Of a stretch of 28,573 nt of DNA, positions 4,969-26,797 are shown piece by piece; positions within the stretch are counted from its first letter, which is position 1; each line of letters begins with the position of its first letter. Source of the stretch: a virus. The notes beneath the pieces are model-generated. The model did not search any database, was not told where the DNA came from, and saw nothing but the letters and a program-made list of their open reading frames with translations. Where the stretch lies: the IMG/VR virus record IMGVR_UViG_3300037119_002076, positions 1-28,573 of that record; one strand, written 5' to 3'. The translations under genes were made by a program, and so were the position numbers.

Positions 4969-5388
4969 ATGCTCGATCCAATGATGATCGATGTGCTTCG
5001 CAAATTAACAGAGGCCATCGACTTGTTGCGTATCGTCGTAGCCAACAACGCGCGCGCGGAAAACGAGCTCGAGCCGGTCAGCGTCGATGGCGATCACTAC
5101 AATTGGACTAACACTAAGTTTCTAGACACGTATCTCGACGATATCGAACTCGGCCCAGGATATACCGTTCGCTTGCGTCAGATGTGTAAGTACTCGCGTT
5201 TTAGGATAAATGAGATGTCTGCGCCGTTTCAATTGCAAACAGTGCGCGACCTCGTGCAGCTGAGCGAAGCGCAGATCTTGCGTGAGCCCAACATCGGAAA
5301 GGCGTGCCTGCAACGTTACAAGGCAATGCTCGCCCCTCACGGCCTACATTTCGGAATGAGGTTTCCCCCGGTTAGAGTGGTGGCATGA
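4969..5388 (+). CDS. RNA polymerase alpha C-terminal-domain-like protein
   Basis: A 139-residue protein. The last 60 residues read like the helix-hairpin-helix domain of bacterial RpoA: FRINEMSAPFQLQTVRDLVQ, then an acidic helix, then NIGKACLQRYKAML and HGLHFG. In RpoA the equivalents are a 'tVGDLVQ' helix, 'NxGkkSLxEIkexL' and 'GLxLG'. L89-Q97 and N108-K111 are the diagnostic parts. The first 60 residues are a separate helical and acidic segment without an RpoA counterpart. The family knowledge is that alphaCTD binds UP-element DNA and transcription activators. A phage protein carrying it could redirect host RNA polymerase or bind DNA at packaging. GAGGT (4959-4963) is the ribosome binding site. 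The stop overlaps the terminase start (ATGA). Confidence 0.6.
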   Translation: MLDPMMIDVLRKLTEAIDLLRIVVANNARAENELEPVSVDGDHYNWTNTKFLDTYLDDIELGPGYTVRLRQMCKYSRFRINEMSAPFQLQTVRDLVQLSEAQILREPNIGKACLQRYKAMLAPHGLHFGMRFPPVRVVA

Positions 5389-6773
5389 ACGAGCCGGCCA
5401 AATTCTATCTGCCGTACCAAGGATGGGCGCCTCGGCCGCATCAGAAAAATCTCTGGCGCTTTCTCATGCGCGACGGCAAACGCGCCGTCGCTGTATGGCA
5501 CAGACGCGCAGGCAAGGACGAGGTCTGCTTGCACGCCACATCGCTGGCAATGATCAAGCGGCCGGCGAACTATGTGCATTTGTTACCAGAGTTTGCAATG
5601 GCGCGACGTGCGATATGGGAAAGCGTAAACCCGCATACAGGAAGGCGACGCATCGATGAGACTTTCCCGCAGCATCTCCGCGCTAACACCAACGAAGGCA
5701 CCATGTTCATCCGTTACCACAACGGAGCAACATGGAGCGTTGCAGGATCAGACAGTATCGTGCAAGGAGGTAGTGGCCTCGGTTCAAGTGTTGCGGGTAT
5801 TGTCTTCTCGGAAGCTGCTCTCGCGCGGCCGGAAGCGTGGGGCTTCTATAGACCCATCCTCGAGGAAAATGACGGCTGGGCGTGTTGGATCTCTACTCCC
5901 CGAGGACGCAATTATTTTCTACAACTCTACCAACATGCTGTTCGTACCCCCGGATGGTTCGCAGAGCATCTCCCAGCAACAGAAACTTTTGCCCTCACCG
6001 CAGAGGCGCTTGATGAAGCCAGAACAGAGCTGATCGATCTCTACGGAGAGGATCACGGCAACGCGCTGTTCGAACAGGAGATGATGTGCAGCTGGAACGC
6101 CTCGATTCAAATCGGCGCGTTCTACGCGCGAGAAATGCGCCAGGTGCGCATCGAGAACCGCATCATAGACTGCGAGCCGATCGCGGACGTGCCAGTGCAT
6201 CGCTCTTGGGATCTGGGCATGTCCGATGATACGTCGGTGTGGTGGTTTCAACCGCAGCCATCAGGACAAGTGTTAATCCTAGATCACCTCGCTAACAACT
6301 CGGTATCATTGGAATGGTGGCGAGATGAGATATTCAAGCGCGAGAACGCTCGAGGATGGCTGCACGGCTACGATTACGTCCCTCATGACGCCAAGGTTAG
6401 AGAGCTTGGCACCGGACGAACGCGAGTTGAGACTATGTCAGCGCTTGGTCTTAGACCTATGCCGGCGCCCAACGCTAGTCTCCACGACGGAATTAACGCT
6501 GTTAGGCGAACTTTGCCTCTATGCGTATTTCACCCGCGCACTGAAGAGGGCGGCATCTCGGCGCTCGAGCAGTACAGGCGCGAATGGGACGACGAGCGCA
6601 AGTGCTTCAGAGCAACCGAGGTACACGATTGGGCCAGTCACCCCGCGGACAGCTTCCGATACTTCGCAATGTCCTGGCGGCCGGTGCCGATCAAGCGAGT
6701 AGAGAGGCCAAGGCGCGATGGTTGGTATCTGCCTCCTCCAGCGGAGAATAAACGCAGGGGGATTGTGTTATGA
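5385..6773 (+). CDS. terL: Terminase large subunit
   Basis: A 462-residue packaging motor. The N-terminal ATPase has Walker A in HRRAGKDE (K44) and a Walker B-type strand GIVFSEAA with E143 as the catalytic carboxylate. As in several phage families, the residue before it is Ser, not Asp. The C-terminal nuclease has RSWDLGMSDD (D276) and the late motif HDWASHPADSFRY (D422), the usual acidic ligands of an RNase H-fold headful or cos nuclease. The length is normal for the family. The gene overlaps its neighbours by four bases on each side (ATGA), indicating translational coupling. It pumps DNA into the prohead through the portal encoded two genes downstream. Confidence 0.95.
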   Translation: MNEPAKFYLPYQGWAPRPHQKNLWRFLMRDGKRAVAVWHRRAGKDEVCLHATSLAMIKRPANYVHLLPEFAMARRAIWESVNPHTGRRRIDETFPQHLRANTNEGTMFIRYHNGATWSVAGSDSIVQGGSGLGSSVAGIVFSEAALARPEAWGFYRPILEENDGWACWISTPRGRNYFLQLYQHAVRTPGWFAEHLPATETFALTAEALDEARTELIDLYGEDHGNALFEQEMMCSWNASIQIGAFYAREMRQVRIENRIIDCEPIADVPVHRSWDLGMSDDTSVWWFQPQPSGQVLILDHLANNSVSLEWWRDEIFKRENARGWLHGYDYVPHDAKVRELGTGRTRVETMSALGLRPMPAPNASLHDGINAVRRTLPLCVFHPRTEEGGISALEQYRREWDDERKCFRATEVHDWASHPADSFRYFAMSWRPVPIKRVERPRRDGWYLPPPAENKRRGIVL

Positions 6774-7267
6774 GGAGAGCAAACAAGAAAGGGTCCAAGA
6801 TGAAAGAATTAACGAGAGCGCAGCTCCGAAAGGCGTTCGTTAAGACAGAGGCAAAGGTCAAGAAGCCGACGCAGCAGCAACAGGACATGCAGAGCATGAT
6901 CACCGGCATTAACAGGCTGGACGCTCGCTATCTGTCGCTGTCCAATCAAACCGCATCCTTTGGTGCTGTGGTCAAGTCAGCGGTGGATACAATCGTTGCC
7001 GGGTCGGCACACGATCGCAAGAGTATAACGGAAGTTGTAGCGGTGCTATCGACCGATGTTGTTAGGCTGGAGGGCGCCATTAGAGAGTTGACCTCTCTCA
7101 TCAACCGCAATGAGCGAGGCTTGAACAACTACGCGCACATCGGTGATCTGAACCACATACGCAAGACGCATCAGGTGTTGGCGAAGGCCGTCGTCCCGTT
7201 GCTGAAGAACGGAAGCACCGATCGTAAGGAACGGAAAAAGATCAAGGGAATAGCTAGAGATGGCTGA
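6770..7267 (+). CDS. Hypothetical helical protein between terminase and portal
   Basis: A 165-residue, strongly basic-ended helical protein. The N-terminus is Lys/Arg-rich (MRRANKKGSKMKELTRAQLRK), the middle is a coiled-coil-like stretch (VVAVLSTDVVRLEGAIRELT) and the C-terminus is again Lys-rich. The ATG at 6770 overlaps the terminase stop. An internal ATG at 6800 is an alternative start that would drop the first 10 residues. The gene overlaps the portal start by 8 bases. Genes in this slot of other short-tailed phages often encode small packaging or portal accessory proteins, but no specific family is recognised. Confidence 0.75.
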   Translation: MRRANKKGSKMKELTRAQLRKAFVKTEAKVKKPTQQQQDMQSMITGINRLDARYLSLSNQTASFGAVVKSAVDTIVAGSAHDRKSITEVVAVLSTDVVRLEGAIRELTSLINRNERGLNNYAHIGDLNHIRKTHQVLAKAVVPLLKNGSTDRKERKKIKGIARDG

Positions 7268-9590
7268 ATATGACGCTGACAAACCGCCGATAGAAGATGA
7301 CATTCGATCGGAGGATCACGAATACAACCCCGCGCTCGAGCCGCAAAGCGCCAAGGCGTGGCTGAATTTATTGAAGGAGAGCGAGGAAGCGTTCGAGGAT
7401 TGGAATAAGCATTGCGACAACACCGATAGGCTATTCGCCAACCTTGAGGAGCTGTCCTCCACCAAGTTAGGCCGCACCAAGCAATATCAAATGTTTTGGG
7501 CCAATCTCGAGGTTATTAAGCCGGCGATCTACGCCAAGGCGCCCGTCCCCGTTGTAACACCAAAATTCAAGGACAGAAGGCCCGTCTATCAGCAAGCCTC
7601 CGAAGTGATGGAGCGCTGCTGCAACGTCGCATTCGACTTAACCCGTATCAATGATCTGATGCTGTTGGTGCGCGATGATCTGGCGCTGTACGGCCGCGGC
7701 GTTGCCTGGTGCCGGTATGAGAGCGGCAGCAAGGGCTACTACGACCATGAGAAGGTGTGCATCGACTTCAAGGGGCGGCGAGACTTCCTGCATTCGATCA
7801 GCCGCAACTGGCGGGAAGTTATGTGGGTCGCCGCGGCGAGCTACCTAACGCGATCGGAGGCGAGAGAGAGGTTCAAGGACTACAGCGGCGACGCCTATCA
7901 GGATTGCGAGTACCGCGTTGACAAAGAAAGCAAGAACGTAGGCGGCGCGGACAATCGAGAGCGTGCCAAATTCTGGGAAATTTGGCATAAAGGCTCACGC
8001 AGAGTGCTGTGGGTGTCCGAGGGCTGCGAGGACATTCTCGACGAGGACGAGCCGCATCTCGAGCTGCAAAACTTCTTTCCTTGCCCCAAGCCGGCCTATG
8101 GCACGATACAGCGCGGCAGCCTGGTGCCGGTGCCGGACAGCATGCAGTACCGAGACCAGCTCGACGAGATCAACGACCTAACAGCCAAGATCCACGCATT
8201 GAGCGAGATGCTCGTTTGCAAGGGGTTCTACCCCGCGGGAGGAGGCGAAGCGGCCGAGGCCATACAGACTGCGCTGGCGATGAACTCGCCTGGCACTGTG
8301 ATTGTGCCAATCGCCAATTGGGCGGCGTTCGGCGCCAACAAAGAGCCGATCATGTGGATGCCGATCGAAATGATCAGCGCCACGATAACAGCGCTTGTTA
8401 TGTTAAGAAAACAAATCATTGATGATATATATCAAATCACTGGTATGGCCGACATAATGAGGGGTGATACCGATCCTAACGAGACGTTAGGCGCCCAGCA
8501 ACTCAAGACACAATACGGATCAAGCAGGATCAGAGACAAGCAACAGGAACTGGTGCGGTTGGCGCGTGATCTAGTCGAGGTAACGAGTGAAATCATAACG
8601 GAGAAGTTCGAGGAAAAGACCATCATTGAGATGTCGCAGACGCAATTGCCGACACAGAAAATGCAAGAGCAGAAAATGATGGGCGTGCAAGGTCAGTTGC
8701 AGCAACTGATGCAGCAAGCTCAAACGATGAAGCAGCAGGGGCCGCCCCCGCAGCAAGAAGCGCCTGATCCAACGCAGCCAGATCCGCAAGATCAGCAATT
8801 GGTGCAGCTAAACCAGCAGATTGAAAAGTGCGTGCTGGAAATGCAGCGGATACAGCACGAGCCGACAATTCAGCAAGTGCTCGAGCTCCTACAGAACAAC
8901 CGCGTCAAGAGCTTCGTGCTCGATATCGAGACCGATAGCACGGTGATGGGCGACGAGGATGCGGAGAAGCAGCGCAGGACGGAATTTGTTGGCGTCCTTG
9001 GCGGGCTAATCCCACAACTTGGTCAGCTGATCCAAGCCGACCCGCAGTCCGCGGATATGTGCGGCAAGATCCTCAAGTTCGGCACAGCGCCGTTCAGGGT
9101 CGGCCGCGAGCTAGAAGGCTCGATCGACGAGTACGTCGAGCACGTCAAGGCAATGGGCGACCAGGGCAAGGCGGAAGATCCCACCACGGTGAACGCCAAG
9201 ACCACGTTGCAGATTGAGCAAATGAAATTGGTTTACGCAAAGCAAAAGGACGACGCGGACAGGCAAGTTAAGATTGCGCAGATACAATCCCAGAATCAGG
9301 GCAAGATTGCAGACAACCAAATCGATGCCCAGGCTAAGCAGATGGAAGTACAGGGCCGACAGCAGGAGCACCGCGCCAAGATAGTACAGATACAACAGGA
9401 CGGGGTGAACAAGCAGAGGGAGCACGAGCTCAAGCTGCGTGAGGCTGCGATGAAGGCTCAAACGGAGATGGCGAAGCATCAGGCCATGATGCAGCAGAGC
9501 TCGATGAAAGCCAACATGCAAGTACAAGCGCAAGCCGATCGGAGGGCTCAGCAGCAATTCAAAATGACCAACACGGGAGGGCTGCCGTAA
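7260..9590 (+). CDS. Portal protein, P22 type
   Basis: A 776-residue dodecameric head-tail connector. The N-terminal two thirds match the P22-type portal pattern: an acidic lead, WANLEVIKPAIYAKAPVPVV, a strand-rich clip/stem region with DDLALYGRGVAWCRY, and the late core helix region YQITGMADIMRGDTDPNETL. From about residue 465 it becomes very Gln/Met-rich (many QQ pairs, repeated QxxQMEVQxxQ), predicted to form long helices, as in the helical barrel that extends into the capsid of P22 portal. The length is slightly above that of P22 portal (about 725 residues). The stop TAA overlaps the next ATG by one base. The assignment rests on recognisable sequence and position. Confidence 0.85.
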   Translation: MAEYDADKPPIEDDIRSEDHEYNPALEPQSAKAWLNLLKESEEAFEDWNKHCDNTDRLFANLEELSSTKLGRTKQYQMFWANLEVIKPAIYAKAPVPVVTPKFKDRRPVYQQASEVMERCCNVAFDLTRINDLMLLVRDDLALYGRGVAWCRYESGSKGYYDHEKVCIDFKGRRDFLHSISRNWREVMWVAAASYLTRSEARERFKDYSGDAYQDCEYRVDKESKNVGGADNRERAKFWEIWHKGSRRVLWVSEGCEDILDEDEPHLELQNFFPCPKPAYGTIQRGSLVPVPDSMQYRDQLDEINDLTAKIHALSEMLVCKGFYPAGGGEAAEAIQTALAMNSPGTVIVPIANWAAFGANKEPIMWMPIEMISATITALVMLRKQIIDDIYQITGMADIMRGDTDPNETLGAQQLKTQYGSSRIRDKQQELVRLARDLVEVTSEIITEKFEEKTIIEMSQTQLPTQKMQEQKMMGVQGQLQQLMQQAQTMKQQGPPPQQEAPDPTQPDPQDQQLVQLNQQIEKCVLEMQRIQHEPTIQQVLELLQNNRVKSFVLDIETDSTVMGDEDAEKQRRTEFVGVLGGLIPQLGQLIQADPQSADMCGKILKFGTAPFRVGRELEGSIDEYVEHVKAMGDQGKAEDPTTVNAKTTLQIEQMKLVYAKQKDDADRQVKIAQIQSQNQGKIADNQIDAQAKQMEVQGRQQEHRAKIVQIQQDGVNKQREHELKLREAAMKAQTEMAKHQAMMQQSSMKANMQVQAQADRRAQQQFKMTNTGGLP

Positions 9591-12524: not shown

Positions 12525-13273
12525 TGGGTATGCCGGTTGTCACGGTAGCATCAGGCGGCTTGCCGATCGTGGAGAGCACGGTTGGCGGCACGCCGGTCAC
12601 CGAGGCTACGAACGGCCGTGGCGTGGCGGTGACGAAAGTCGTCGGCAAGCCGGGGATGCCGGTGGTGTTCGAGACGATTGGGATAGTCGCTGTGCCGACG
12701 ACATGGAACCCCTCCGACAAGTCAGCTAATTTTAACTTGAGTGCGGGAAATCTGACGGCTGCTAGCACAAGTGGGGCAGGTGGTGGCGTTAGAGGCATTA
12801 ACGGACGCACAAGTGCAAAAATTTATTTCGAGATTTTGTATGTGTCCGTTGCAGGCGGGGCCTCATCTGCCGCCGGCATAGCGTTGTCGAGCGCTGATCT
12901 GGCGCTCTGGATGGGTAATGGTTTAGGCGGAATTTGTATTTTCGATAACGGCGGGATATTTCGAAATGGCGCTAGTGTAGGTGTCAATGTTGGTTCGGTT
13001 ACTGCGAGTAAACGACACTGCATTGCCGTTGATATGACTGCAAAACGGTTCTGGGCGCGGGTCGATGCCGGCATTTGGAACGCATCTGCTGGTAACGATC
13101 CGGCGACTGGCGTTGGCGGTATTGATATTTCCGCGGTGTTCACTGCGGGGTTGAATGCGTTCCCAGCTTATGGGGCGTCGTTTAGTGGCAATAGCTGCAC
13201 CGCTAATTTCGGCGCGACGGCGTTCGCTCAGACAATACCTTCCGGTTTCGTTTCTTGGAATGCGGGATCATAG
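12524..13273 (+). CDS. SPRY/ConA-like domain protein with GxPV-repeat N-terminus
   Basis: A 249-residue protein. The first 55 residues are a tandem array of short strands spaced about 10 residues apart, each of the form G-x-P-V (GMPVVTV, GLPIVES, GTPVTEA, GMPVVFE). The remainder matches the SPRY/B30.2-like beta-sandwich seen in many phage virion proteins: KIYFEILYV, AGIALSS, a GNGLGGICIFDNGG loop, HCIAVDMTAKRFWARVDAG, and ending TANFGATAFAQTIPSGFV. This fold is a ligand-binding module without enzymatic residues. AGGA precedes the ATG (overlapping TGATG). The G-x-P-V array is probably an anchoring segment. A glycan-binding role is inferred from the fold. Confidence 0.65.
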   Translation: MGMPVVTVASGGLPIVESTVGGTPVTEATNGRGVAVTKVVGKPGMPVVFETIGIVAVPTTWNPSDKSANFNLSAGNLTAASTSGAGGGVRGINGRTSAKIYFEILYVSVAGGASSAAGIALSSADLALWMGNGLGGICIFDNGGIFRNGASVGVNVGSVTASKRHCIAVDMTAKRFWARVDAGIWNASAGNDPATGVGGIDISAVFTAGLNAFPAYGASFSGNSCTANFGATAFAQTIPSGFVSWNAGS

Positions 13274-13274
13274 C

Positions 13275-15050
13275 ATGACACCATTAGAAACCACTCCCGA
13301 CAGCATCAACGAGCCGCAAACGTTTGCGTATCCGTCGGAGACGCCGCCGAGCATCAATCAGCCCCCGAGTGCTGGCTTTGCACCAGGTGGTGTTGCCGGT
13401 GCGGATTTGTGGTTGTCTGCGGATACCTACAACGCCACGTCGGGGACGTGGGCGGCCGTGACGGGTCAGTCGTTTACGCAAGCCGGCGCCGGGAAGCCGA
13501 CGTTGGTCGCCTCCGGTCTCAACAGCAAGCCAGTTGTGCGGTTCAATGGCACGCAATTTCTAACGGGCAACTACAAATTCACGGATGCCTACTTCACTGT
13601 GTTCATTGTCTGCCGTCAGACCACGATGGTTGATTTCGCAACATGGTTCTGCGAGCAGAATGGATCAGCGAATGGCACCTTTGGTTTCTGCGTCGGGACT
13701 GCGGCGCAGGGACGCAAGCATGGTATAGGCAAGTTTGGTGTCACTACCAGTTTAACAAACAGCGTCAGCGTCATCAATGTTTGGGACCTTCTCACCTATA
13801 GGTCTGTAGGCACAGCCAACGCAAATCAACTTGACAGTACGGGAATAAACAACGGCCTGGTCGAGTGTCTTCTCAGACAGAATGGAGCGTTTGCGGGTGG
13901 CGGCGGCAACGGACCAGGCTGTGGCGCCAACGGGTTCCCCATGACACCGCCTGGCGTGTGTTGTATTGGCGCTTCGCAAAATGGCACAGGCAATTTGATC
14001 ATTGGCGATATTGCCGAAATCATTGTTTACAAGCAATGCTTGGCTAACATCGATATTGTTAACGTCGAGGCTTATTTGGCGAGCAAGTACGCGTTGACTG
14101 TTACGCGAAGGCCCAAGTATGCCGCCGAGGCGTTCGATGGCTGGACGGTTAACACCGCAACTGACATGATCCTCGACAAAGGCGCGCCTGGTTCGTTTGA
14201 TGCTAATGCAGCGTATGGTCCATCGTTTATTTACGACGGTGGAGTTTATTACATGGTCTATGCGGGCCTCGATGCGGCTAACGTCAATGCGATCGGACTT
14301 GCTACCGGGCCGTCACTGAGAAGTCTTACCAAGTACGGAAGGATTTTGCAGAAGTCTGGGGCAGGCTGGGATAGCGCATACATCTCTGGCGATCGTCTGT
14401 TTAAAGATCCTGTGTCTGGTAAATGGTTTCTGTTTTATTTCGGAAGCAACGCGCCAGGGTTCGAGCAGCCGCCGGCACACATCGGTGTGTCTGGCCCACA
14501 GAACACGCCGTACGGTCCCTGGACCAACGCGGCAGGGCCAATCATAACCACGGGTGGCGTGGGGGCATGGGACGAGATCATCCTGTATCGTCCATACGTA
14601 TTTTATAAAGCGCCTACGTATTACCTGTACTACAACGCACATGGCACTGGCGCTCCCGCGCCGGAAAAGATTGGGCTCGCCACCGCAACGGCCATCGCTG
14701 GTCCCTGGACCAAGCACGCATCCAATCCAATCATCTCGCCAGTAGGCGGCACCGATGCCAGTCGCATTGGTGACGGCGTTGTTCTCGAGATCGACCCCGG
14801 CAAATATGTGATGCATTATTTTGGCGGCGCCAACCCGTCCGTTGGCGAAGTCTATTTGGCAGAGAGCACCGACTTGGTTGCGTGGACGAAATACACGGGC
14901 GGCATCTATGTGCGTGTGCCGGGGATGCCGAATTGCGTTCGTCTTGATGTTAGTTTAGTCAATGGTGTTTATGAGGGCGCCTGTGATGACGGTGACGTCG
15001 CCGCCGGCAAGGGGCACACGTTCGTGGCAACACTGAAGTATGGGCCATGA
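13275..15050 (+). CDS. LamG-type lectin fused to glycosidase-type beta-propeller (GH43/GH32/GH130-like)
   Basis: A 591-residue protein. The start at 13275 lies directly after the previous stop; a longer in-frame ORF exists upstream but overlaps the SPRY gene. Residues 1-35 are a Pro-rich linker with SINEPQT and SINQPPS. Residues about 37-275 form a ConA/LamG-like sandwich (ADLWLSADTYNA, VVRFNGTQFLTG, IGDIAEIIVYKQCL, NVEAYLASKYAL). Residues about 280-590 carry about five repeats of the sequence pattern of arabinanase/levanase-type propellers: SFIYDGGVYYMVYAG, WDSAYISGDRLF, WFLFYFG, AWDEIILYRPYVFY and GKYVMHYFGG. The pattern 'gxWDxxxxxxPxVxxxxxxYYLxYxG' is characteristic of these glycosidase propellers. 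Enzyme activity is inferred; a decayed or purely binding propeller is possible. A depolymerase or glycan-receptor role on the virion is likely. Confidence 0.7.
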   Translation: MTPLETTPDSINEPQTFAYPSETPPSINQPPSAGFAPGGVAGADLWLSADTYNATSGTWAAVTGQSFTQAGAGKPTLVASGLNSKPVVRFNGTQFLTGNYKFTDAYFTVFIVCRQTTMVDFATWFCEQNGSANGTFGFCVGTAAQGRKHGIGKFGVTTSLTNSVSVINVWDLLTYRSVGTANANQLDSTGINNGLVECLLRQNGAFAGGGGNGPGCGANGFPMTPPGVCCIGASQNGTGNLIIGDIAEIIVYKQCLANIDIVNVEAYLASKYALTVTRRPKYAAEAFDGWTVNTATDMILDKGAPGSFDANAAYGPSFIYDGGVYYMVYAGLDAANVNAIGLATGPSLRSLTKYGRILQKSGAGWDSAYISGDRLFKDPVSGKWFLFYFGSNAPGFEQPPAHIGVSGPQNTPYGPWTNAAGPIITTGGVGAWDEIILYRPYVFYKAPTYYLYYNAHGTGAPAPEKIGLATATAIAGPWTKHASNPIISPVGGTDASRIGDGVVLEIDPGKYVMHYFGGANPSVGEVYLAESTDLVAWTKYTGGIYVRVPGMPNCVRLDVSLVNGVYEGACDDGDVAAGKGHTFVATLKYGP

Positions 15051-16647: not shown

Positions 16648-17667
16648 ATGCCTAACATTACGACTAACGCAGCATACCAACAAATCCTTAGCATGGCGCT
16701 CGAGGATCGATCGTCCGGCTACCAGGATCTCGTCAGTAACAACAACGCACTCCTTGCGGTTATGAAACGCAAGGGGCTCTGGAAGACATACAGTGGACCT
16801 AAAATTCGTGAGACATTACAGATAGGTAAGCAAAATGCTCAGTGGTATTCTGGATACGATCAGCTGCTGAACCCGGCACTCGATTTATTCAATGACGCTT
16901 TCTGGGACCCTAAACAAGTAGTGGTGCCTGTGATTTTGAGCCTCCAAGAAATTTTGAACAATGAGGGCGAAGCACAACTTCTCGATGTTTTCGAACAGTA
17001 TATATCGGCGGCCGAGCGTGCCCTGGAAGACGCAATGGATGCCGGGATCTATAGCGATGGTACTGCAAATGGTAATAAACAAATCACTGGACTTGCAGCT
17101 GCCATTCCCGTCGTAACCAACTCCGGCACATATGGCGGCATCAACCGCGGCACTGCCACGATTTGGCAGACGGCAACGTTTGATGCGCATTCGTTCCTGG
17201 CCGGCGCGACACAGGTTACATCGACAACGATCAGGCCTATGCTCAACGCCATCATGACGCGGCAGTCCAGGGGCCGCGACTTCGCCGATCTTCTCATCAT
17301 GAGCCCAGAGCACTACGCGGCCTATGATGCGGCGACTGTTCTCATACAGCGCCAAACCAACGAGACGTCCCTCGGCAAACTCGGTTTCTCGGCGCTCGAA
17401 TATATCGGTGGCGGCAAGCGAGCGGAGATCGTGCTCGACGGCGGCATCGGAAGTAACATGCCGGCCAACACGACGTTCGGTATCAACACCGACACGTTTA
17501 GGATGCGTTACCATCCCAACAGGAATTTTGATAAGCTGTTTGATGGTGATGGTATGATGCCAATTGACAAGGACGCCATCGCTCAGTTCGTGGGGTGGAT
17601 GGGCGAACTTACCCAAGTAAACCCTTTATTCAACTGGCGTTTTTACGATTCAGTTCCTGCATCGTAA
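16648..17667 (+). CDS. Major capsid (coat) protein, HK97-fold type
   Basis: A 339-residue protein. It begins with the helical N-arm and elongated-arm pattern (NITTNAAYQQILSMALEDR). It has VVVPVILSLQEILNNEGEA followed by LLDVFEQYISAAERALEDAM. Next comes GIYSDGTANGNKQITGLAA, the usual 'YsDGtgn...GL' element after the spine helix, and then a GGINRGTATIWQ strand typical of this coat family. The C-terminus has an aromatic F-x-W end. There is no N-terminal protease domain, so assembly depends on the separate scaffold. GGAG (16635-16638) is the ribosome binding site. The 19-codon peptide starts ten bases after the stop. Confidence 0.9.
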   Translation: MPNITTNAAYQQILSMALEDRSSGYQDLVSNNNALLAVMKRKGLWKTYSGPKIRETLQIGKQNAQWYSGYDQLLNPALDLFNDAFWDPKQVVVPVILSLQEILNNEGEAQLLDVFEQYISAAERALEDAMDAGIYSDGTANGNKQITGLAAAIPVVTNSGTYGGINRGTATIWQTATFDAHSFLAGATQVTSTTIRPMLNAIMTRQSRGRDFADLLIMSPEHYAAYDAATVLIQRQTNETSLGKLGFSALEYIGGGKRAEIVLDGGIGSNMPANTTFGINTDTFRMRYHPNRNFDKLFDGDGMMPIDKDAIAQFVGWMGELTQVNPLFNWRFYDSVPAS

Positions 17668-18628: not shown

Positions 18629-19339
18629 ATGACGCTGCTGTCAGTTGTTAGGGATGTCTGCGCGGTGGTTGGCGTTCAGATGCCTACCAGCGTGTTCGCT
18701 AACATTGATACCAACCGCACCATGGCTGAAATGCTGTCTTTGGCTAACGAGATGGCGCAAACGATCGCCTATGATGGGCGAGACTGGACGTTGCTTAGGA
18801 AGATTGGAGCGGTCGCTGGCGACGACGTAACTACAGGGTTTAGCCTGCCGGCCGATTACCAGAGGTTCCTGCTGACATCAAATGTATGGCGCTCCTCGTC
18901 AACGCAAACGCCCATGCAATTCATTTCAGATACCGACCAGTGGGCGAACCGTAGGATGTCTGGCAATACCAACTGGATGTCTATTGGCAGTTGGGGAGAG
19001 TGGACCATCCTCGGCGGTCTACTGCACATCTTCCCCCCGTTGACTGTGACTGAAAAAGCCTACTTCGCCTATTTGAATAAGAATTGCATCGATCTGAAAG
19101 GCGGCGGCCATGGCGACGTGTTCATGGATGACGCTGACAGCTTTTCCTTGGACGAGCGCGTTTTGAAATTAGGTATGATCTGGCGCTGGAAAGCGCAGAA
19201 AGGATCAGCCTACACCGAGGATCTGGGCACTTATGGTGATGCACTCGCCAATGTGTCCGCACGTGACAGTCCGGCGCCCATCCTCCTCCCGCGGACTGTA
19301 AATATTGGCATCTGGGGGAAGCGCTATGGCAGTTTCTAG
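18629..19339 (+). CDS. Head-to-tail adaptor, P22 gp4-like
   Basis: A 236-residue protein. It has the helical N-terminus of the family (MTLLSVVRDVCAVVGV, TMAEMLSLANEMAQTIAYDG) and the diagnostic middle FSLPADYQRFLLTSNVW. A barrel region with WTILGGLLHIFPPLTVTE and YFAYLNKNCIDLKGG, and a C-terminal helix ERVLKLGMIWRWKAQKG, complete the pattern. P22 gp4 binds beneath the portal and forms the platform for the tail hub. It overlaps the next gene's start. The ribosome binding site is weak (GAGAAAG). Together with the P22-type portal this supports podovirus-type morphology. Confidence 0.7.
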   Translation: MTLLSVVRDVCAVVGVQMPTSVFANIDTNRTMAEMLSLANEMAQTIAYDGRDWTLLRKIGAVAGDDVTTGFSLPADYQRFLLTSNVWRSSSTQTPMQFISDTDQWANRRMSGNTNWMSIGSWGEWTILGGLLHIFPPLTVTEKAYFAYLNKNCIDLKGGGHGDVFMDDADSFSLDERVLKLGMIWRWKAQKGSAYTEDLGTYGDALANVSARDSPAPILLPRTVNIGIWGKRYGSF

Positions 19340-20966
19340 CCGCCAGGTAATGCCGGATACCGCCGCGTTTAACGTCGCGCTGGAGGGTCCTGCGGGCGTG
19401 CAGGGACCGCCTGGCACGCAAGGACCGCAGGGCGTAAAGGGCGATACAGGCCCGCAGGGCGTAAAGGGCGACAAGGGGGATACTGGAGACACCGGACCGC
19501 CGGGCGCGTCAGGCTCCGGCTCCGGAGATGTGGCTGGCCCAGCTGGCGCAGTTGCGGATCGTATCGCAGTCTACAATGGCGCTACTGGCAAAGTGATCAA
19601 GGATGGTGGCCGCACGATCGCCGAGTTGGCGCTGCTGGCTTCGCCGACGTTCACGGGTGATCCGAAGGCGCCGACACCGACTGCTGGCGACAATGACACG
19701 TCCGTTGCCACTACTGCTTTCGTCACCACGGCTGTAGCGAGTGTTGCGCCTCCCGCGGCAGGCAGCGTTACCTTTACGCCAGCGGGCAACATCGCGGCTA
19801 CCAACGTACAGACAGCGCTCGTCGAGCTCGACAACGAGAAAGTCGCCAAGGCCGGCGACATCATGAGTGGCGCGCTGCGGACTGGCACAGCGTTCCCGGT
19901 AACGCCTTATACCTCGACGATCAGCGCCAATAATTTCTCGGCGGACAACGCCATTGGGTTCAATGCGTTTGTCAATTCTGCGGGCACTGGCTGGGTTGCC
20001 CAGAACGCCGGCTATGGCGCCACGATCTCACAGGCATCCGGCACCGGGCAGATTATTTTCTCGACGACGACAGCTTCTGTCGCTGCTGGTGCGGCCTACA
20101 CGCTCGCTACGACAGCGACGCTTGATCGTACAGGTGGTTTCAACCCTAAGTGGGTCAATATCACTTCCGCTGACAGTTTCTCGACGTACAATATTCTCAG
20201 TACTGACACGCCCGGCGCGAATTTCGGATTTGGCGTACAGGGCGGTTACATGGCGTTCAACGAACAAGGCAACGGGTATAACTGGTACGGGTCTGGCGCG
20301 TCGAGAATGCAATTAGCCCACGGCGGTGGGCTCACTGTTGTCCAGCCGGCTACTATTACAAACGTAGCGTTGTCCGTTGTCGGGGCGACAAACGCTCTCT
20401 GCGCTGATTTCAGGAGCAACACTACCGGCACTGCGGCCCTCATCGGCTGGTGTTATACGGTTGTTCATTACGGCCGTGTCGGCCATGAGGCCTCTGGCAC
20501 CAAATATAGCTTCTGGGGCAGCACGGGCGCGTTCCTGAACGCCGGGACCTGGGCCACCTCTGACGCCCGCGTCAAGAATGTTACTCGCACGCTCGACCCT
20601 GTCGCGGCGTTGATGGCGGTTAACGCGCTTCAGGTGAACGAGTTCACGCCGGCATCGCCAGCTGCAAAATCGATATTCTTCGGCCGCGAAGATGTCGAGA
20701 ATGACACGCTGTACGGTTGGAACGCCCAAGAAGTCGAAGCGGTGATCCCAATTGCGGTGCGCGACGTCGCGTTGTCGAAAGACGATCAGATTACGCGCGC
20801 GGCGCTAAAGTCCGTTCCGATGCCTGAACAAGACAGCAAGGAGGCCGAAGCGCTTGGCGAAGGAGACATGAGCATCAAAGCAATCAATGACAGGTACATG
20901 CTGACTGTACTGTGGGCGGCAGTACAGCGGCTATCGGCCGAAATTGAATTGTTAAAGGCAACGTAA
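19326..20966 (+). CDS. Tail fibre with collagen-like repeats and S74 intramolecular chaperone
   Basis: A 546-residue protein. The ATG at 19326 is preferred over an upstream in-frame TTG because GGGGGA (19314-19319) lies six bases before it; it overlaps the adaptor stop. Residues about 20-60 are Gly-X-Y repeats (GPQGVKGDTGPQGVKGDKGD) encoded by a 20-bp exact DNA repeat (19425-19444 and 19452-19471). The middle has the phage-tail motif TFTGDPKAPTPTAGDNDTS and long beta-rich sections. The last 135 residues are an S74 (ICA) chaperone: SDARVKNVTRTL with S412 and K417 as the expected autoproteolysis dyad, ending in a helical trimerisation segment (WAAVQRLSAEIELLKA). It trimerises and adsorbs to the host. 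The S74 segment is cleaved off after folding in related proteins. Confidence 0.85.
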   Translation: MAVSSRQVMPDTAAFNVALEGPAGVQGPPGTQGPQGVKGDTGPQGVKGDKGDTGDTGPPGASGSGSGDVAGPAGAVADRIAVYNGATGKVIKDGGRTIAELALLASPTFTGDPKAPTPTAGDNDTSVATTAFVTTAVASVAPPAAGSVTFTPAGNIAATNVQTALVELDNEKVAKAGDIMSGALRTGTAFPVTPYTSTISANNFSADNAIGFNAFVNSAGTGWVAQNAGYGATISQASGTGQIIFSTTTASVAAGAAYTLATTATLDRTGGFNPKWVNITSADSFSTYNILSTDTPGANFGFGVQGGYMAFNEQGNGYNWYGSGASRMQLAHGGGLTVVQPATITNVALSVVGATNALCADFRSNTTGTAALIGWCYTVVHYGRVGHEASGTKYSFWGSTGAFLNAGTWATSDARVKNVTRTLDPVAALMAVNALQVNEFTPASPAAKSIFFGREDVENDTLYGWNAQEVEAVIPIAVRDVALSKDDQITRAALKSVPMPEQDSKEAEALGEGDMSIKAINDRYMLTVLWAAVQRLSAEIELLKAT

Positions 20967-20967
20967 G

Positions 20968-23682
20968 ATGGGCTCAGCATACGCCAATTACAAACGTGCC
21001 TCGATGCCGCCACAGCTGGTGCAGAAGTACGAGCCAATCACATTTCCGGCGCCAACCCGCGGATTGATGCTGGCCGACAACGAGGCTTTCCAACAGCCCG
21101 GCGGTGCGGTGGTGATGGACAATTGGAAACCGACACTGCGCGGTTGCAGCCTGCGCGGCGGCTGCGTGCGCTGGGCGACCTTGCCTGAGACCACGCCGGT
21201 TATTTCCGCTTTCGAGTACGCTTCAGGAAACAACCAACAGATGTTCGCGGCTAACGCCACCAAGCTATACAACGTGACGGCTGGCGGCTCGCCAACGTTA
21301 GTCAAGTCGGGACAAACATCCGGTAATTACGCCGCCTCGCAACTGGCTAATCAGGGCGGTGATTATCTGATTGCGGTGAACGACGCCGGCAATGATGTTT
21401 TGCGTTATGACGGCACAAATTGGATAACACTAACTTATACAGTTCCGACAAACTGGGCCACGAGTACTTTCTACGCCGTTGGCGCCAGGGCGACGGATAC
21501 CGCCGATAACACCCACTGGAAAGTAGCTCCTACACACGCCCACACTAGTGCCGCCGCGGGGACGTTTCTCGCCGATCGCAGTGCACATCCGGGGTATTGG
21601 GTGGAGGATACGGCGTCTGACGACATCCCTTGGATTACCGGACCCGCAACCTCAAAAGTCGTCAACGGCAAAAACCTCGTTTACGTCAACAAGTATCGCA
21701 ATCGCCTGTTTTTCATTGAGGCGACCTCGATGAACGCCTGGTACCTACCGCCTAATTCGGTGGGCGGTCAGTTGCAGATGATTCCGCTTTCAGGCGCAGC
21801 CACCCGAGGCGGGAAGTTATTGTTTTGTGCAACCTGGAGTTTAGATGCCGGCGACGGTGTGGATGACAAGCTGGTCTTCGCGACAGACCTCGGCGAGCTC
21901 CTCATATTCACGGGTGGCGATCCCTCGAGCGCCGCCAACTGGCGCCAGGAAGGCCGCTATCAGATCAGTCCGCCGATGGGGATGAACGCATGGGTGCAGT
22001 TGGGTGGCGAGCTTCTGATACTCACCACGTCCGGCATCATCCCTGTCAGCGCCTCCATTACCAAAGGGCCTGAAGAGCTCGAGCTCGCCGCCATCACACG
22101 CAACATCCGCGAGATGTGGCGCGATGAAGTTAGCGCCAAGCGGCAATGGTCTTGGACGGCGTGCAATTGGGAGGAATATGGAGGAGCATTTGTCACCTGG
22201 CCGGGCGGCGCGCCAGGTAAACGTTATTGCGGCGTAGTCAACGCTTCGACTGGCGCCTGGTGTCGTTTTGTTGGTTATGACGCGACGTGTTTTATTCGCA
22301 TGCGCTCAGACATGTTTTTCGGCACCCAGGACGGCAAGATCATGCAGGCCGATCGCACTGGCTACGATGACGGTGTGCCCTACCTGGCGACGCTGGTTGG
22401 CGGCTGGGAAGTGTTTCAGTCACCAGGCCAGACCATCACGTGGCGGCAGGCGCGAGCTTCGTTCACGGCGGCCCAGGGCCAGCCATTCCAGCCGCAACTA
22501 TCGGGCACAACGGACTACAATGTCACGCTGCCGCAGCCGCCGCCGGCAGGACCAGATCCTGGCATCGCCGACGTCTGGGATCAGGGTCACTGGGGGCCTA
22601 ACATGGGTCCGGTACAGCCGGCGGCGTGGAAAAACAACACTGCGTACACGGTTGGGCAACAGGTCTATGAGCCTGGAACAACCACTCGTTCTTCAATCAA
22701 CGAAAATTTCGATGCGTGGCCGGGTGACACATCTTCGGACGGCTTGTGGATGAAGTCCGATTGGACGTCAGTCGGAAACGATATGGACCCATTGCGGGCA
22801 GTGGTTTCAGGCGGCCTACTCAACCTCACCAGCACGACCAGTTCGGCTCCATTGCAGGGCGCGGAGGTGCAAACTACGCGCGGTTATGGCTACGGCCGTT
22901 ATGAATGTCGCATGAAGGTCTCCCCCGCCAATGCGGGGGTTGCTAGCTTCTTCTTGTATGGCGTGGGTAGCGGCATTCCAGAATTTGATATGGAGTTTTT
23001 GCTTAACGAGCAGCAGATACTCCACGTCACTAATCATCCGGAAGTTGGCGAAACGATCGTTCCGTTATTTTTTGATCCCACCGCGGCGTTTCACACCTAC
23101 GCGATTAATTGGATTCCGGGTCCTGACCCTGGCACTGCCACAGTGCAGAATTTTGTCGATGGGCAGATGGTTGCCACCCAGACCAGCCCGAATTTTTTGC
23201 CTCCGACTGGCGGCTGTTTAATCATGATGAACGTGTGGAGTGGCGAGCCTGATTTTGGTGGCGGGCCACCTTCCACCAACGCGACAACACAATATGACTG
23301 GGTTCGTTTTACCCCGTTCGTTAGTTCGCCGCCACCTCCCAACAATTCACTGTGGTCGCTCTGGACTGTTGCCACTAATCACACCAGTGCGGCAACGGGG
23401 ATGTTTGGGGACGACCGTGCGGATCACCCGACTTACTGGACAGCGGCCGGGACGTTTCCGCCGCCGCCAGTGCCGACTGCACCGGAGCGCGTTGCTTACG
23501 CGCAGTGGGACCAGCACTACGCCAGCCACGGCCCGGTTCGCAACACGATGTGGGTCAGCATTGGCGTCACCGGGTTCTCGCATGCGCCGATCGTGCAAGT
23601 GATGGTCGCGCAGAACGCCAAGCCTAATGTGGATCTGATCGCAATTTCCGCTCTCTTTGAGCGAGCGGGGATGAACGTGTAG
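20968..23682 (+). CDS. Tail hub protein with nested GH16 glycoside hydrolase
   Basis: A 904-residue protein. The N-terminal 550 residues resemble a conserved phage tail (gp10-like hub) protein: FPAPTRGLMLADNEAFQQ, VVMDNWKPTLRGCSLRGG, and later ISPPMGMNAWVQLGGELLIL with TACNWEEYGGAFVTWPGG. Residues 163-211 form a carbohydrate-binding-like module (W163...Y169-V171-G172, then H192-T193-S194, D203-R204, H207-P208, Y210-W211). A second copy starts at W554 (TAYTVGQQV) and is interrupted after S575 by a GH16-type lectin-like catalytic domain (residues about 577-785). It then resumes with LWTVATNHTSAATGMF...HPTYW (residues 798-824). The GH16 signature ExDxE is complete: E672-F-D674-M-E676, in PEFDMEFL. 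Such enzymes cleave beta-glucans, agars or galactans. An endo-depolymerase at the tail hub would open host exopolysaccharide. The hub assignment is moderate; the GH16 call is strong. Confidence 0.8.
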   Translation: MGSAYANYKRASMPPQLVQKYEPITFPAPTRGLMLADNEAFQQPGGAVVMDNWKPTLRGCSLRGGCVRWATLPETTPVISAFEYASGNNQQMFAANATKLYNVTAGGSPTLVKSGQTSGNYAASQLANQGGDYLIAVNDAGNDVLRYDGTNWITLTYTVPTNWATSTFYAVGARATDTADNTHWKVAPTHAHTSAAAGTFLADRSAHPGYWVEDTASDDIPWITGPATSKVVNGKNLVYVNKYRNRLFFIEATSMNAWYLPPNSVGGQLQMIPLSGAATRGGKLLFCATWSLDAGDGVDDKLVFATDLGELLIFTGGDPSSAANWRQEGRYQISPPMGMNAWVQLGGELLILTTSGIIPVSASITKGPEELELAAITRNIREMWRDEVSAKRQWSWTACNWEEYGGAFVTWPGGAPGKRYCGVVNASTGAWCRFVGYDATCFIRMRSDMFFGTQDGKIMQADRTGYDDGVPYLATLVGGWEVFQSPGQTITWRQARASFTAAQGQPFQPQLSGTTDYNVTLPQPPPAGPDPGIADVWDQGHWGPNMGPVQPAAWKNNTAYTVGQQVYEPGTTTRSSINENFDAWPGDTSSDGLWMKSDWTSVGNDMDPLRAVVSGGLLNLTSTTSSAPLQGAEVQTTRGYGYGRYECRMKVSPANAGVASFFLYGVGSGIPEFDMEFLLNEQQILHVTNHPEVGETIVPLFFDPTAAFHTYAINWIPGPDPGTATVQNFVDGQMVATQTSPNFLPPTGGCLIMMNVWSGEPDFGGGPPSTNATTQYDWVRFTPFVSSPPPPNNSLWSLWTVATNHTSAATGMFGDDRADHPTYWTAAGTFPPPPVPTAPERVAYAQWDQHYASHGPVRNTMWVSIGVTGFSHAPIVQVMVAQNAKPNVDLIAISALFERAGMNV

Positions 23683-23693
23683 AGGGCCTTACG

Positions 23694-26315
23694 ATGGCAC
23701 TGTCAGCCTATGATGAGCGCCTGTTCGAGGACGATCCGCGCTGGACGCCGACAGAACGGGATGCAGCGCTGGCGCAGCGCAACGCTATCGCTACGGCAAT
23801 CTTGCGCAATAACGCGCAACAGCGTCCGAGTTATACATCACAGCTGCCACCCTATGGCGGCGGCTATGGCACGCTTGCGGGCGATCCTGGCTATGGTGCG
23901 CCTACTGGCACACCTACCGGCACACCTACTGGCCCGACAACTGGCGCGCCCGCTGGCCCAACTACCGGCGCGCCTACTGGCCCCGGTCACGGCCCGTCCA
24001 CAGGTCCCAGCCCATCCCCAGGCACACCCTCTGGAAAGGGCGGCATTGGCTCCGACGCCGCGGCGGCGCCTGGTCCAGCTTCAAGTCCCACAGGTGCGCA
24101 CGCCAGTGCAGCGGCTACTCTTGCCGAACAAGCCGAACATTCCAGTATCACGCAGCCAGGCTTAGTCGGGCCGGAAGCGCATACAAGTGAAACAGCACAG
24201 TCACCATTGGCCGGGCTGACCGCACATGGCCAATTGGCCAACCAAACCCAAAGTCAGGCCTTGGCAGAGGCGATGCAGCAAGGTTTGGTTGCGTCTCCTA
24301 CCCAGCAGAGTGTTGCACCTGACAAATCTCCACCTTCAGTCTTTGGTGAGCCTCCCACCGACTTAACACCAAATGTTACAATGGAGGGAAGAACTCCGAC
24401 AAAGGCCGATATGGCGACGATCGCGCAAAATTTAGCTGCGATTGCCACGGTTAATTTGGGCAAAACCAATCCAAATAATCCGTTTGCTACGCCAGAAGCC
24501 CCACCAGCCCCCATGAATCTTACTCAGGAAGCGCCGGAAGATCCCGCCGTCACAGCGATTAATAATGCCGTCAACCAAGCCATGCAGAAGGGCTACCAAA
24601 AGGGAGAGCCCACGGCCGAAGAAGACGCCGCCGCATTGGCTGCTGCCAATGCCCAAGCCGTGCAAAAAGGCTACATGACACAGGAGGGCGTGCCTACTCA
24701 AAATACCACGTCTCAGTCGCTATCGAGCCTAGGATTTACCGCCCCCGGCGTGCATGGGTTCACCGGCTTTTCGCCAAGTCCCGCTAATGCGGTTGGCAAG
24801 GGCAGTGTCAACGCTAACCAGGGATTTACCTCGCTCGGCAAGGGCGACCCTGACAATCCGACGCCTACTACGACGCCCAGCGACCCGGACAATCCGGCGG
24901 TAGTGGCCGATACCTCCATGACGGAAGCTGCCCAGCACGGTTTCCCCAAGGGGGAAGTAACCGTGAGCCCCATATCGCCGGTCACGCCTACGCCAATGGC
25001 GCCCCCGATGTCGCCGGTCGATCCGTTCGCGCCAACGATTAATACCCCTGACCCATTTGGCCAAGTAACGACGTCGCCCACGCCTACTTCACTCTCCCCT
25101 GCCCATGCAGCGCTTGCCGCGGCGATCGCTCAGCATGGCCCAGTAGGGCCCCTCGGTCATCCCTCGGCCGTCACTGCACCGGACCAGACTGCCCCGGACC
25201 CCACCGGCCTACAGTCAGATCCAGGGCTCCAGGCGCAGATGTCCGACGCTGCCGCGGCACTGGCCGCGGATGTCGGCACTGCGCCGGCTCCTACAACAAC
25301 AACGACAGGGCTCACCCAGTCGCAATCGGACCAGGCCGCGGCACTGGCCGCGGATGTCGGTATATCGCCGGCCGCTGCTGCGGCGGCTCTTGGGTTTGGC
25401 AAGGGGGCGCCCGCAACAGCGCCCACAGCACCGGCAGCGCCCACAGCACCGACAGCGGTGGCCCCGCTCGGCTATGCACCCGCAGAAAAGGGCGAACCGA
25501 CTGAGGCCGAGGCAGCTATCAATACAGCCGTCAATGCAACCCTTGGCAAGGCGGCGCCGCAGACTGCGGTGACCCAGGTATCTCAGGTGGCGCCGACGCC
25601 GACGACGGAGGTGCCTGCGGTTAATATCGAAAGCCAACCGGCTCTCGTCGCCGATCCAACTGAGCAGTCCACGGTCGATGCCGCGATCGCCCAGAGCTTG
25701 GGTCTGAGCCCGACGCAAGGACCAACCCAGGGCTTTAGCCTTGGATTTGGACTTGGCAATGCGGCGAGCAGTGGCAACCAAGGCGGGGTGGCTACAGGGC
25801 CCGCCGCGGGCTTGGGCGGAGCTCTTGGCGGCGCTCCGGGCGGGGATGCCGGCGGCGACAGCGGCGGCCTTGGCGGCGGCGGGGGCGGTAGCGGCGCAGG
25901 CGTAGGCGACGGCGGCCTCGGCGGGCCGGGTGGTCCAGGCAGTGGTGGCGGCCAGGGTGGCCTTGGTGGTGGCACCGGCAGCGCTGGCGTTGGTCCAGGC
26001 ATTGGGTTTGGCGGCAGCGCAGGCGACAGCAGCGGAGGCCTCGGCGGCCCAGCCGGCGGCGTCAGCGGCACCAGCGGGCAAGGCGTCAGTGTCGGTGCCC
26101 CCGGCGAAGGCGCCTCTCCTGGCGGCTTTGGCGAAGGCGCGGCCGGCATTGCAGGCGTATCGGGCGCAGGCGCCCTTGGTGGCGGTATTGGTATTGGCGG
26201 CCTTGGTGGCGGTATCGGAGATGGCAGTTCCACTGGCGGCGCCCTCGGTGGCGGCATCGGCGGCAGTGAAGGTGGCGGTATCGGTGCCGGCCTTGGCGGC
26301 GGCCCAGGGTGGTAA
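23694..26315 (+). CDS. Large Pro/Thr- then Gly-rich repetitive disordered protein
   Basis: An 873-residue, low-complexity protein. The first 45 residues are ordered (MALSAYDERLFEDDPRWTPT). Then comes a PTG-repeat stretch (GTPTGTPTGPTTGAPAGP, about residues 70-100), a long Ala/Thr/Pro linker and several loose repeats of AxxxGYxKGEPTAEE type (QKGYQKGEPT, EKGEPTEAEA). A 26-bp exact repeat encodes AAALAADVG twice (25251-25276 and 25335-25360). The last 180 residues are GLGGG/GGIG-type runs, silk- or glue-like. No enzymatic motif was found. It sits in the tail/adsorption module, so it could be a flexible fibre, an adhesin or an ejection protein. The reading frame is intact across the whole length despite the repetition. 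Confidence 0.7.
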   Translation: MALSAYDERLFEDDPRWTPTERDAALAQRNAIATAILRNNAQQRPSYTSQLPPYGGGYGTLAGDPGYGAPTGTPTGTPTGPTTGAPAGPTTGAPTGPGHGPSTGPSPSPGTPSGKGGIGSDAAAAPGPASSPTGAHASAAATLAEQAEHSSITQPGLVGPEAHTSETAQSPLAGLTAHGQLANQTQSQALAEAMQQGLVASPTQQSVAPDKSPPSVFGEPPTDLTPNVTMEGRTPTKADMATIAQNLAAIATVNLGKTNPNNPFATPEAPPAPMNLTQEAPEDPAVTAINNAVNQAMQKGYQKGEPTAEEDAAALAAANAQAVQKGYMTQEGVPTQNTTSQSLSSLGFTAPGVHGFTGFSPSPANAVGKGSVNANQGFTSLGKGDPDNPTPTTTPSDPDNPAVVADTSMTEAAQHGFPKGEVTVSPISPVTPTPMAPPMSPVDPFAPTINTPDPFGQVTTSPTPTSLSPAHAALAAAIAQHGPVGPLGHPSAVTAPDQTAPDPTGLQSDPGLQAQMSDAAAALAADVGTAPAPTTTTTGLTQSQSDQAAALAADVGISPAAAAAALGFGKGAPATAPTAPAAPTAPTAVAPLGYAPAEKGEPTEAEAAINTAVNATLGKAAPQTAVTQVSQVAPTPTTEVPAVNIESQPALVADPTEQSTVDAAIAQSLGLSPTQGPTQGFSLGFGLGNAASSGNQGGVATGPAAGLGGALGGAPGGDAGGDSGGLGGGGGGSGAGVGDGGLGGPGGPGSGGGQGGLGGGTGSAGVGPGIGFGGSAGDSSGGLGGPAGGVSGTSGQGVSVGAPGEGASPGGFGEGAAGIAGVSGAGALGGGIGIGGLGGGIGDGSSTGGALGGGIGGSEGGGIGAGLGGGPGW

Positions 26316-26317
26316 CC

Positions 26318-26797
26318 ATGATTGATTATGTCTATGGCCACGATAGAACCGTTGCGAACTTCGTCTCGCAGCTGATCCTGCCATGTCGCGGACGCGATTT
26401 TGGGAATTGTTCGGCAATCGGCGTCATCGACAACGACGGTAAGCTAATCGCCGGCATCGTCTACCACAACTATGACGTCGATGCTGGCGTCATCGAGACG
26501 TCGGTGGCGGCGCTTCCTGGTAAGAATTGGTACACGCGAGAAACCATCCGGCGCATGTACCAATACCCGTTTATCCAACTCCGTTGCCAGATGACCATCA
26601 TGCGGGTGCCGGCAGACAATGTTAGATTAGTGCGGATTGCCAAAGCGCTGAACTACCAGCTTGTCACTATACCGAGGTTGCTGGGTCGCAATCGGGACGC
26701 TGTGATTGGATTACTGACCTACGAGAGATGGGCCAACAACAAGTTCAATCAACGCTATCGTCACCACATCGTCGAGCCGATCGAGGAGGCCGCCTGA
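26318..26797 (+). CDS. GNAT-type acetyltransferase-like phage protein
   Basis: A 159-residue protein (start 26318; an in-frame GTG upstream is less likely because it overlaps the previous gene). It matches a phage family with the GNAT fold: GVIDNDGKLIAGIVYHNYD, VIETSVAALPGKNWYTRETI, YPFIQLRCQMTIMRVPADN and VRLVRIAKALNYQL. The family's acetyl-CoA-loop positions are partly covered by R/V residues, so activity is not certain. The substrate is unknown. Its place among virion genes is usual for this phage family (established pattern from memory). The stop TGA overlaps the next ATG. Confidence 0.65.
   Translation: MIDYVYGHDRTVANFVSQLILPCRGRDFGNCSAIGVIDNDGKLIAGIVYHNYDVDAGVIETSVAALPGKNWYTRETIRRMYQYPFIQLRCQMTIMRVPADNVRLVRIAKALNYQLVTIPRLLGRNRDAVIGLLTYERWANNKFNQRYRHHIVEPIEEAA

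Follow-up and report, generated by a model that had tools for sequence, protein, structure and literature searches.

How a catalytic domain of glycoside hydrolase family 16 (GH16) came to lie inside a phage tail protein, and what it might do there, are the questions raised by a 904-residue open reading frame (ORF) at positions 20968-23682 (+) of the DNA analysed here, a stretch of 28,573 nucleotides called the window. Pfam, PHROGs and an ORF survey identify the window as a podovirus genome fragment with a structural gene cluster, from a soil phage. The cluster contains a terminase-like ORF (5385-6773), the portal (7260-9590), the major capsid protein (16648-17667), an adaptor-like ORF (18629-19339), a fibre (19305-20966) and the 904-residue ORF, which carries two copies of a small module as well as the GH16 domain. 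The fibre ORF (+) has a TTG start, collagen-like repeats and a C-terminal match to the S74 endosialidase chaperone that is below threshold. On the 3' side of the 904-residue ORF lies an 873-residue ORF (23694-26315, +), rich in proline, threonine, glycine and alanine, with a long glycine-rich C-terminus and no family match, and near the tail genes there is an N-acyltransferase-type ORF (phrog_4470; 26309-26797, +). The nearest cultured phage by capsid is Rhizobium phage RHph_I3_18 (61% identity), in which the order of portal, capsid, adaptors and hub is similar and an N-acyltransferase gene likewise adjoins the hub.

The 904-residue protein had been described from its sequence as a tail hub, and the fold search supports that assignment. 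Residues 24-543 match phrog_5107 (E 3.8e-113), GH16 is the sole family that Pfam finds on the ORF, and Foldseek of a full-length AlphaFold (AF2) model retrieves the Pan3 tail complex (9vyg, E 6e-12) and P22 gp10 (8u10, E 8.5e-10, TM-score normalised by target 0.60), with T7 gp12 and the SU10 nozzle also among the matches. The predicted fold is the beta-propeller of these hubs, and the gene occupies the same place, after the portal, capsid and adaptor-like genes; on this model, the ORF encodes a short-tail hub or nozzle with the P22 gp10/T7 gp12 fold. The matched proteins are described as structural, whereas the 904-residue protein adds two modules and a glycoside hydrolase of about 220 residues within one of them. 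The name 'amidase' is given to this hub family by phrog_5107 and in several GenBank records; because the model matches tail hubs, the label is judged misleading and is probably wrong. The C-terminal segment of the hub, residues 838-904 (23479..23679, +), is conserved in an alignment of 40 homologues.

The central domain, residues 581-782 (22708..23313, +), is a lichenase-type GH16 both by profile and by fold, as proposed in the preliminary description. Pfam PF00722 matches it with E 2.3e-15 (56.9 bits against a cut-off of 22), and phmmer against the PDB aligns lichenase 3o5s over the same residues with E 3.9e-19, the best PDB matches being Bacillus-type lichenases. In a second AF2 model, of residues 535-859 with GH16 relatives added, the domain is predicted as a beta-jelly-roll for which the top Foldseek matches are again lichenases (1u0a, E 5.4e-11; 1u0a, 1gbg and 3wvj, E about 1e-10). 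All three acids of the catalytic ExDxE motif, E672-F-D674-M-E676 (22981..22995, +), are kept at the residues first reported and align with EIDIE of lichenases, and most other invariant columns are kept too, among them GYG, FF, W187 and, in the numbering of the aligned segment, E63. The fold, motif and Pfam family are common to Bacillus BglS (1gbg/3o5s) and the rhizobial endo-1,3-1,4-beta-glycanase ExoK; in contrast to these secreted enzymes, the hub domain lies within a phage structural protein, is about 30-38% identical to them and falls below the NCBIfam equivalog cut-offs (81 of 300 bits for BglS, 41 of 350 bits for ExoK), and neither name appears warranted. The nearest cellular relatives found, 33-39% identical, come from the order around Rhodoblastus and from a Lachnospiraceae metagenome-assembled genome. 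The GC3 of the insert (0.585 versus 0.655) differs only mildly, and base composition is therefore a poor guide to its origin.

The function considered likely, ahead of its alternatives, is that of a virion-bound exopolysaccharide hydrolase. In a short-tailed phage the hub is where the particle meets the envelope, and an endo-beta-glucanase carried there could thin the exopolysaccharide layer while the particle moves forward, so that cutting of host exopolysaccharide or mixed-linkage beta-glucan at adsorption would let the hub reach the outer membrane. The capsid relative RHph_I3_18 infects Rhizobium, and Rhizobium etli and S. meliloti produce a mixed-linkage glucan that is cleaved by lichenase (PMC9495663), both of which count in favor of this explanation; a rhizobial host and a glucan substrate are putative. 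An unlikely alternative is that the domain is a glycan-binding lectin, an adhesin made from an inactive or weakly active hydrolase, through which the virion is attached to beta-glucan. The domain is very divergent, with a branch of 2.39 in the GH16 tree, and two residues, including a tryptophan, are missing just before the catalytic motif, features that would suit a lectin and that may reflect a changed substrate or even a changed activity; a dead enzyme would nevertheless be expected to lose some of the three catalytic acids and other invariant columns that are kept. Somewhat less likely still, the domain might act on plant or soil beta-glucans as an auxiliary means of carbon release rather than on the host envelope. 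The lichenase-like fold would allow this, as would the presence in the same structural cluster of a 631-residue ORF (13155-15050, +), between the portal and capsid genes, with a GH43-type five-bladed-propeller match at residues 347-560 (PF04616, E 1.2e-10, above cut-off; PDB 4u6d, E 2.7e-10) and a weak virion-structural match at residues 104-316; this ORF, not found in the contigs of 20 other relatives, is a candidate second sugar-active protein of the phage. Against such a role, the GH16 domain is part of a virion hub, present at the cell surface during entry, and not a free secreted enzyme.

The setting of the putative hydrolase within the hub is defined by the module. A profile of about 49 residues was built from 99 fragments, with every copy from the 904-residue protein left out. 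It recovers an intact first copy at residues 162-211 (21451..21600, +; 54.0 bits), confirming the W163-W211 module of the preliminary description in residues and coordinates, and two pieces of a second copy: residues 553-571 (22624..22680, +; 14.3 bits), which correspond to profile positions 1-19, and residues 797-825 (23356..23442, +; 35.4 bits), which correspond to positions 21-49. The second copy starts at W554 and has HPTYW at 820-824; the reported identity of 10 of 17 residues between the copies in the last stretch is about right, a recount from HTS to YW giving 13 of 20. The module is aromatic-rich, about 45 residues long, and resembles carbohydrate-binding module family 5/12 (CBM5/12, PF02839) in its W..xTxY..G....G..W.C...HTS pattern, with Pfam E-values of 5e-4 to 7e-5. 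Its earlier designation as carbohydrate-binding-like holds in that such matches are seen (five of six seed modules at E<=5, the best at 5e-4), but all are below the curated cut-off, the best among homologous modules having E 7e-5 and 23.3 bits versus 26.2, and the module has a conserved C-terminal extension of its own, FxADRxAHPxYW, which the first copy shows as ADRxAHPxYW. Glycan binding by the module is plausible from this likeness.

The two pieces of the second copy are contiguous in the profile, with a clean break between positions 19 and 21, and are separated in the protein by 225 residues with the GH16 domain. Since both sets of positions were matched above the best score obtained from 2000 shuffles of the 904-residue protein (6.5 bits), the halves are complementary parts of one module. 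In the full-length model, the elements of copy 1 (strands at 162, 168-169, 174-177, 182-186 and 192-193, a helix at 200-206 and a strand at 211-213) correspond one-to-one to those of copy 2 (strands at 552-553, 559-560 and 565-567, then, beyond GH16, strands at 798-801 and 805-806, a helix at 813-819 and a strand at 824-828), and both models place GH16 between strands 3 and 4, as expected of a domain emerging from a loop. Predicted confidence (pLDDT) in the full-length model is in the 80s to 90s for copy 1 and about 76-84 for the halves of copy 2, while GH16, without aligned relatives there, is poorly predicted; in the second model the GH16 values are mostly 70-88, with the elements of the module halves unchanged. 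Secondary structure and profile together suggest that the halves pack as one module. The termini of GH16 lichenases are close together and circularly permuted variants fold, which explains how the domain is tolerated in a loop; the PDB matches of the hub domain include the circularly permuted 1cpn and 1ajk. That the flanking halves are instead independent linkers, module and GH16 having been added side by side, is very improbable: the N-terminal half by itself reaches just 14 bits, but in the profile the two halves complement each other exactly, the strands that DSSP assigns to both in the models need bonding partners, and in seven other contigs this site holds the whole module without interruption.

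These contigs belong to a set of IMG/VR hub homologues that present three states at the site of the second copy. In L003-L005, L008, L013, L018, L022 and others there is no module, and residue ~545 is joined directly to the conserved C-terminal segment at ~838; in L006, L050, L054, L087, L090, L099 and L100 the module is uninterrupted, and those of L006, L050, L054, L087, L090 and L100 align with the N-terminal half of copy 2; and in one phage only, represented by the window and contig L001, the module is split. The nearest uninterrupted homologue, L090, reads ...KVYDPANPPNNTLWTVAINHTSAATGLFAADRAAHPTYWTAAGT... where the window reads ...QVYEPG, GH16 and PPPPNNSLWSLWTVATNHTSAATGMFGDDRADHPTYWTAAGT... 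At the codon level, ..TAC GAC CCC and CCA CCC AAC AAC ACG CTC TGG ACT GTT GCC in L090 correspond to ..TAT GAG CCT, the insert, and CCT CCC AAC AAT TCA CTG TGG TCG CTC TGG ACT GTT GCC in the window, and on the right flank the L090 DNA is nearly identical to that of the window. By this comparison the inserted segment is about residues 570-789 (22675..23334, +), 220 residues with boundaries uncertain by a few residues. Direct repeats of 6 to 12 bases were not found at its ends. An 18-base string shared with L128 was considered as a second left junction and rejected, as it is part of a tail-fibre motif that is unrelated. That homologues have empty sites supports the direction of insertion, and parsimony favors a sequence of events in which the hub first gained the module and GH16 then entered this pre-existing module. 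A further contig, L002 (IMGVR_UViG_3300037071_003620), is a fragment ending at the left junction; it is otherwise identical to the window, but at its end (positions 5660-5722) the last three bases are TGT where the window has CGT, and this end could mark the point at which variants with the insert and variants lacking it diverge. Mis-assembly of GH16 into the gene is the least credible reading. In its favor, the insert is carried by one phage only, and L002, which comes from a sister sample, breaks off no more than a few bases from the left junction and differs there at one base; but the reading frame is kept across both junctions, the break falls in a loop, and the window and L001, which have different ends, are 100% identical along 11.9 kb that contain the entire insert.

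Nesting of GH16 in a hub module is well supported, and the module itself appears at several other places. In hubs it is found after about residues 71 and 108 and at the site of copy 1 (residues 155-214), with other places in more distant hubs, and tail-fibre-like ORFs carry it as tandem copies near their N-terminus. Among 152 distinct module-bearing ORFs (201 full modules), two modules are interrupted, that of this phage and one in L107, where an intact module lies within another, split between profile positions 34 and 35; the L107 case, in which the guest module occupies a loop other than the one taken by GH16 here, shows that nesting by itself is not unique. The L107 protein (5-970) is of secreted type, ends in a ...YWSGSSYAPYSYYAW... 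domain and lies directly upstream of a reverse transcriptase; it looks like the target of a diversity-generating retroelement. Tentatively, and with less confidence than the readings preferred above, the module may serve phage surface proteins as a mobile socket, one that occupies at least four hub loops as well as tail-fibre-like proteins and takes cargo in its own loops (GH16 here, a module in L107), by which enzymes could be fitted to a DNA-injection nozzle with the hub fold undisturbed.

A second GH16 domain was not found in any hub in the collections searched. A search of 50,697 cultured phage records returned zero GH16 matches, the records of 28 relatives other than the phage's own contig contain no PF00722, and two IMG/VR scans, resting on short exact peptide patterns that distant GH16s can escape, returned only this phage and one distant match, L126; other viral GH16s found by Foldseek are structurally distant. 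The preliminary description knew of no hub with such a nested hydrolase, and none came up in the open-access papers searched. The elements are of known kinds, namely domain mosaicism in phages and virion-associated depolymerases, here combined in nested form in a hub. As in Ig-like domain insertions and domain shuffling in phage structural proteins (PMC10684548, PMC9022992), small modules occupy loops of tail proteins, but here a catalytic domain is nested within such a module, at two levels. The dual-function tail tubular proteins TTPA gp31 of KP32 and gp11 of phiYeO3-12 resemble the hub in that a tail-tube component is reported to hydrolyze a polysaccharide; TTPA, however, is described as a single-domain adaptor with activity on starch (PMC7060351), whereas the hub has a catalytic domain of known fold inserted in it. 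Tailspike depolymerases, e.g. of Klebsiella phages (PMC6872550), are likewise virion-bound enzymes presumed to clear surface polysaccharide, but are separate proteins, attached by N-terminal anchors, rather than a domain placed within a loop of the hub.

The explanation that best accommodates these observations, and is considered likely as a whole, is that the surface loops of a podovirus hub were decorated with a small mobile beta-module, CBM5/12-like, one copy of which took an endo-beta-1,3-1,4-glucanase-type GH16 into the loop that connects its strands 3 and 4 and displays it as a virion enzyme. The module, folding from two halves, would be a rigid bracket that keeps the enzyme outside the hub, probably in six copies per virion, as in P22 and T7. 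Because the insertion is in-frame and two-level and relatives with the empty site are extant, living sequences allow the step of insertion to be retraced. The loop that tolerates 220 inserted residues is a natural precedent for enzyme display on a phage tail hub, and the placing of a putative polysaccharide hydrolase on the injection nozzle instead of a tailspike suggests another route by which phages may pass exopolysaccharide.
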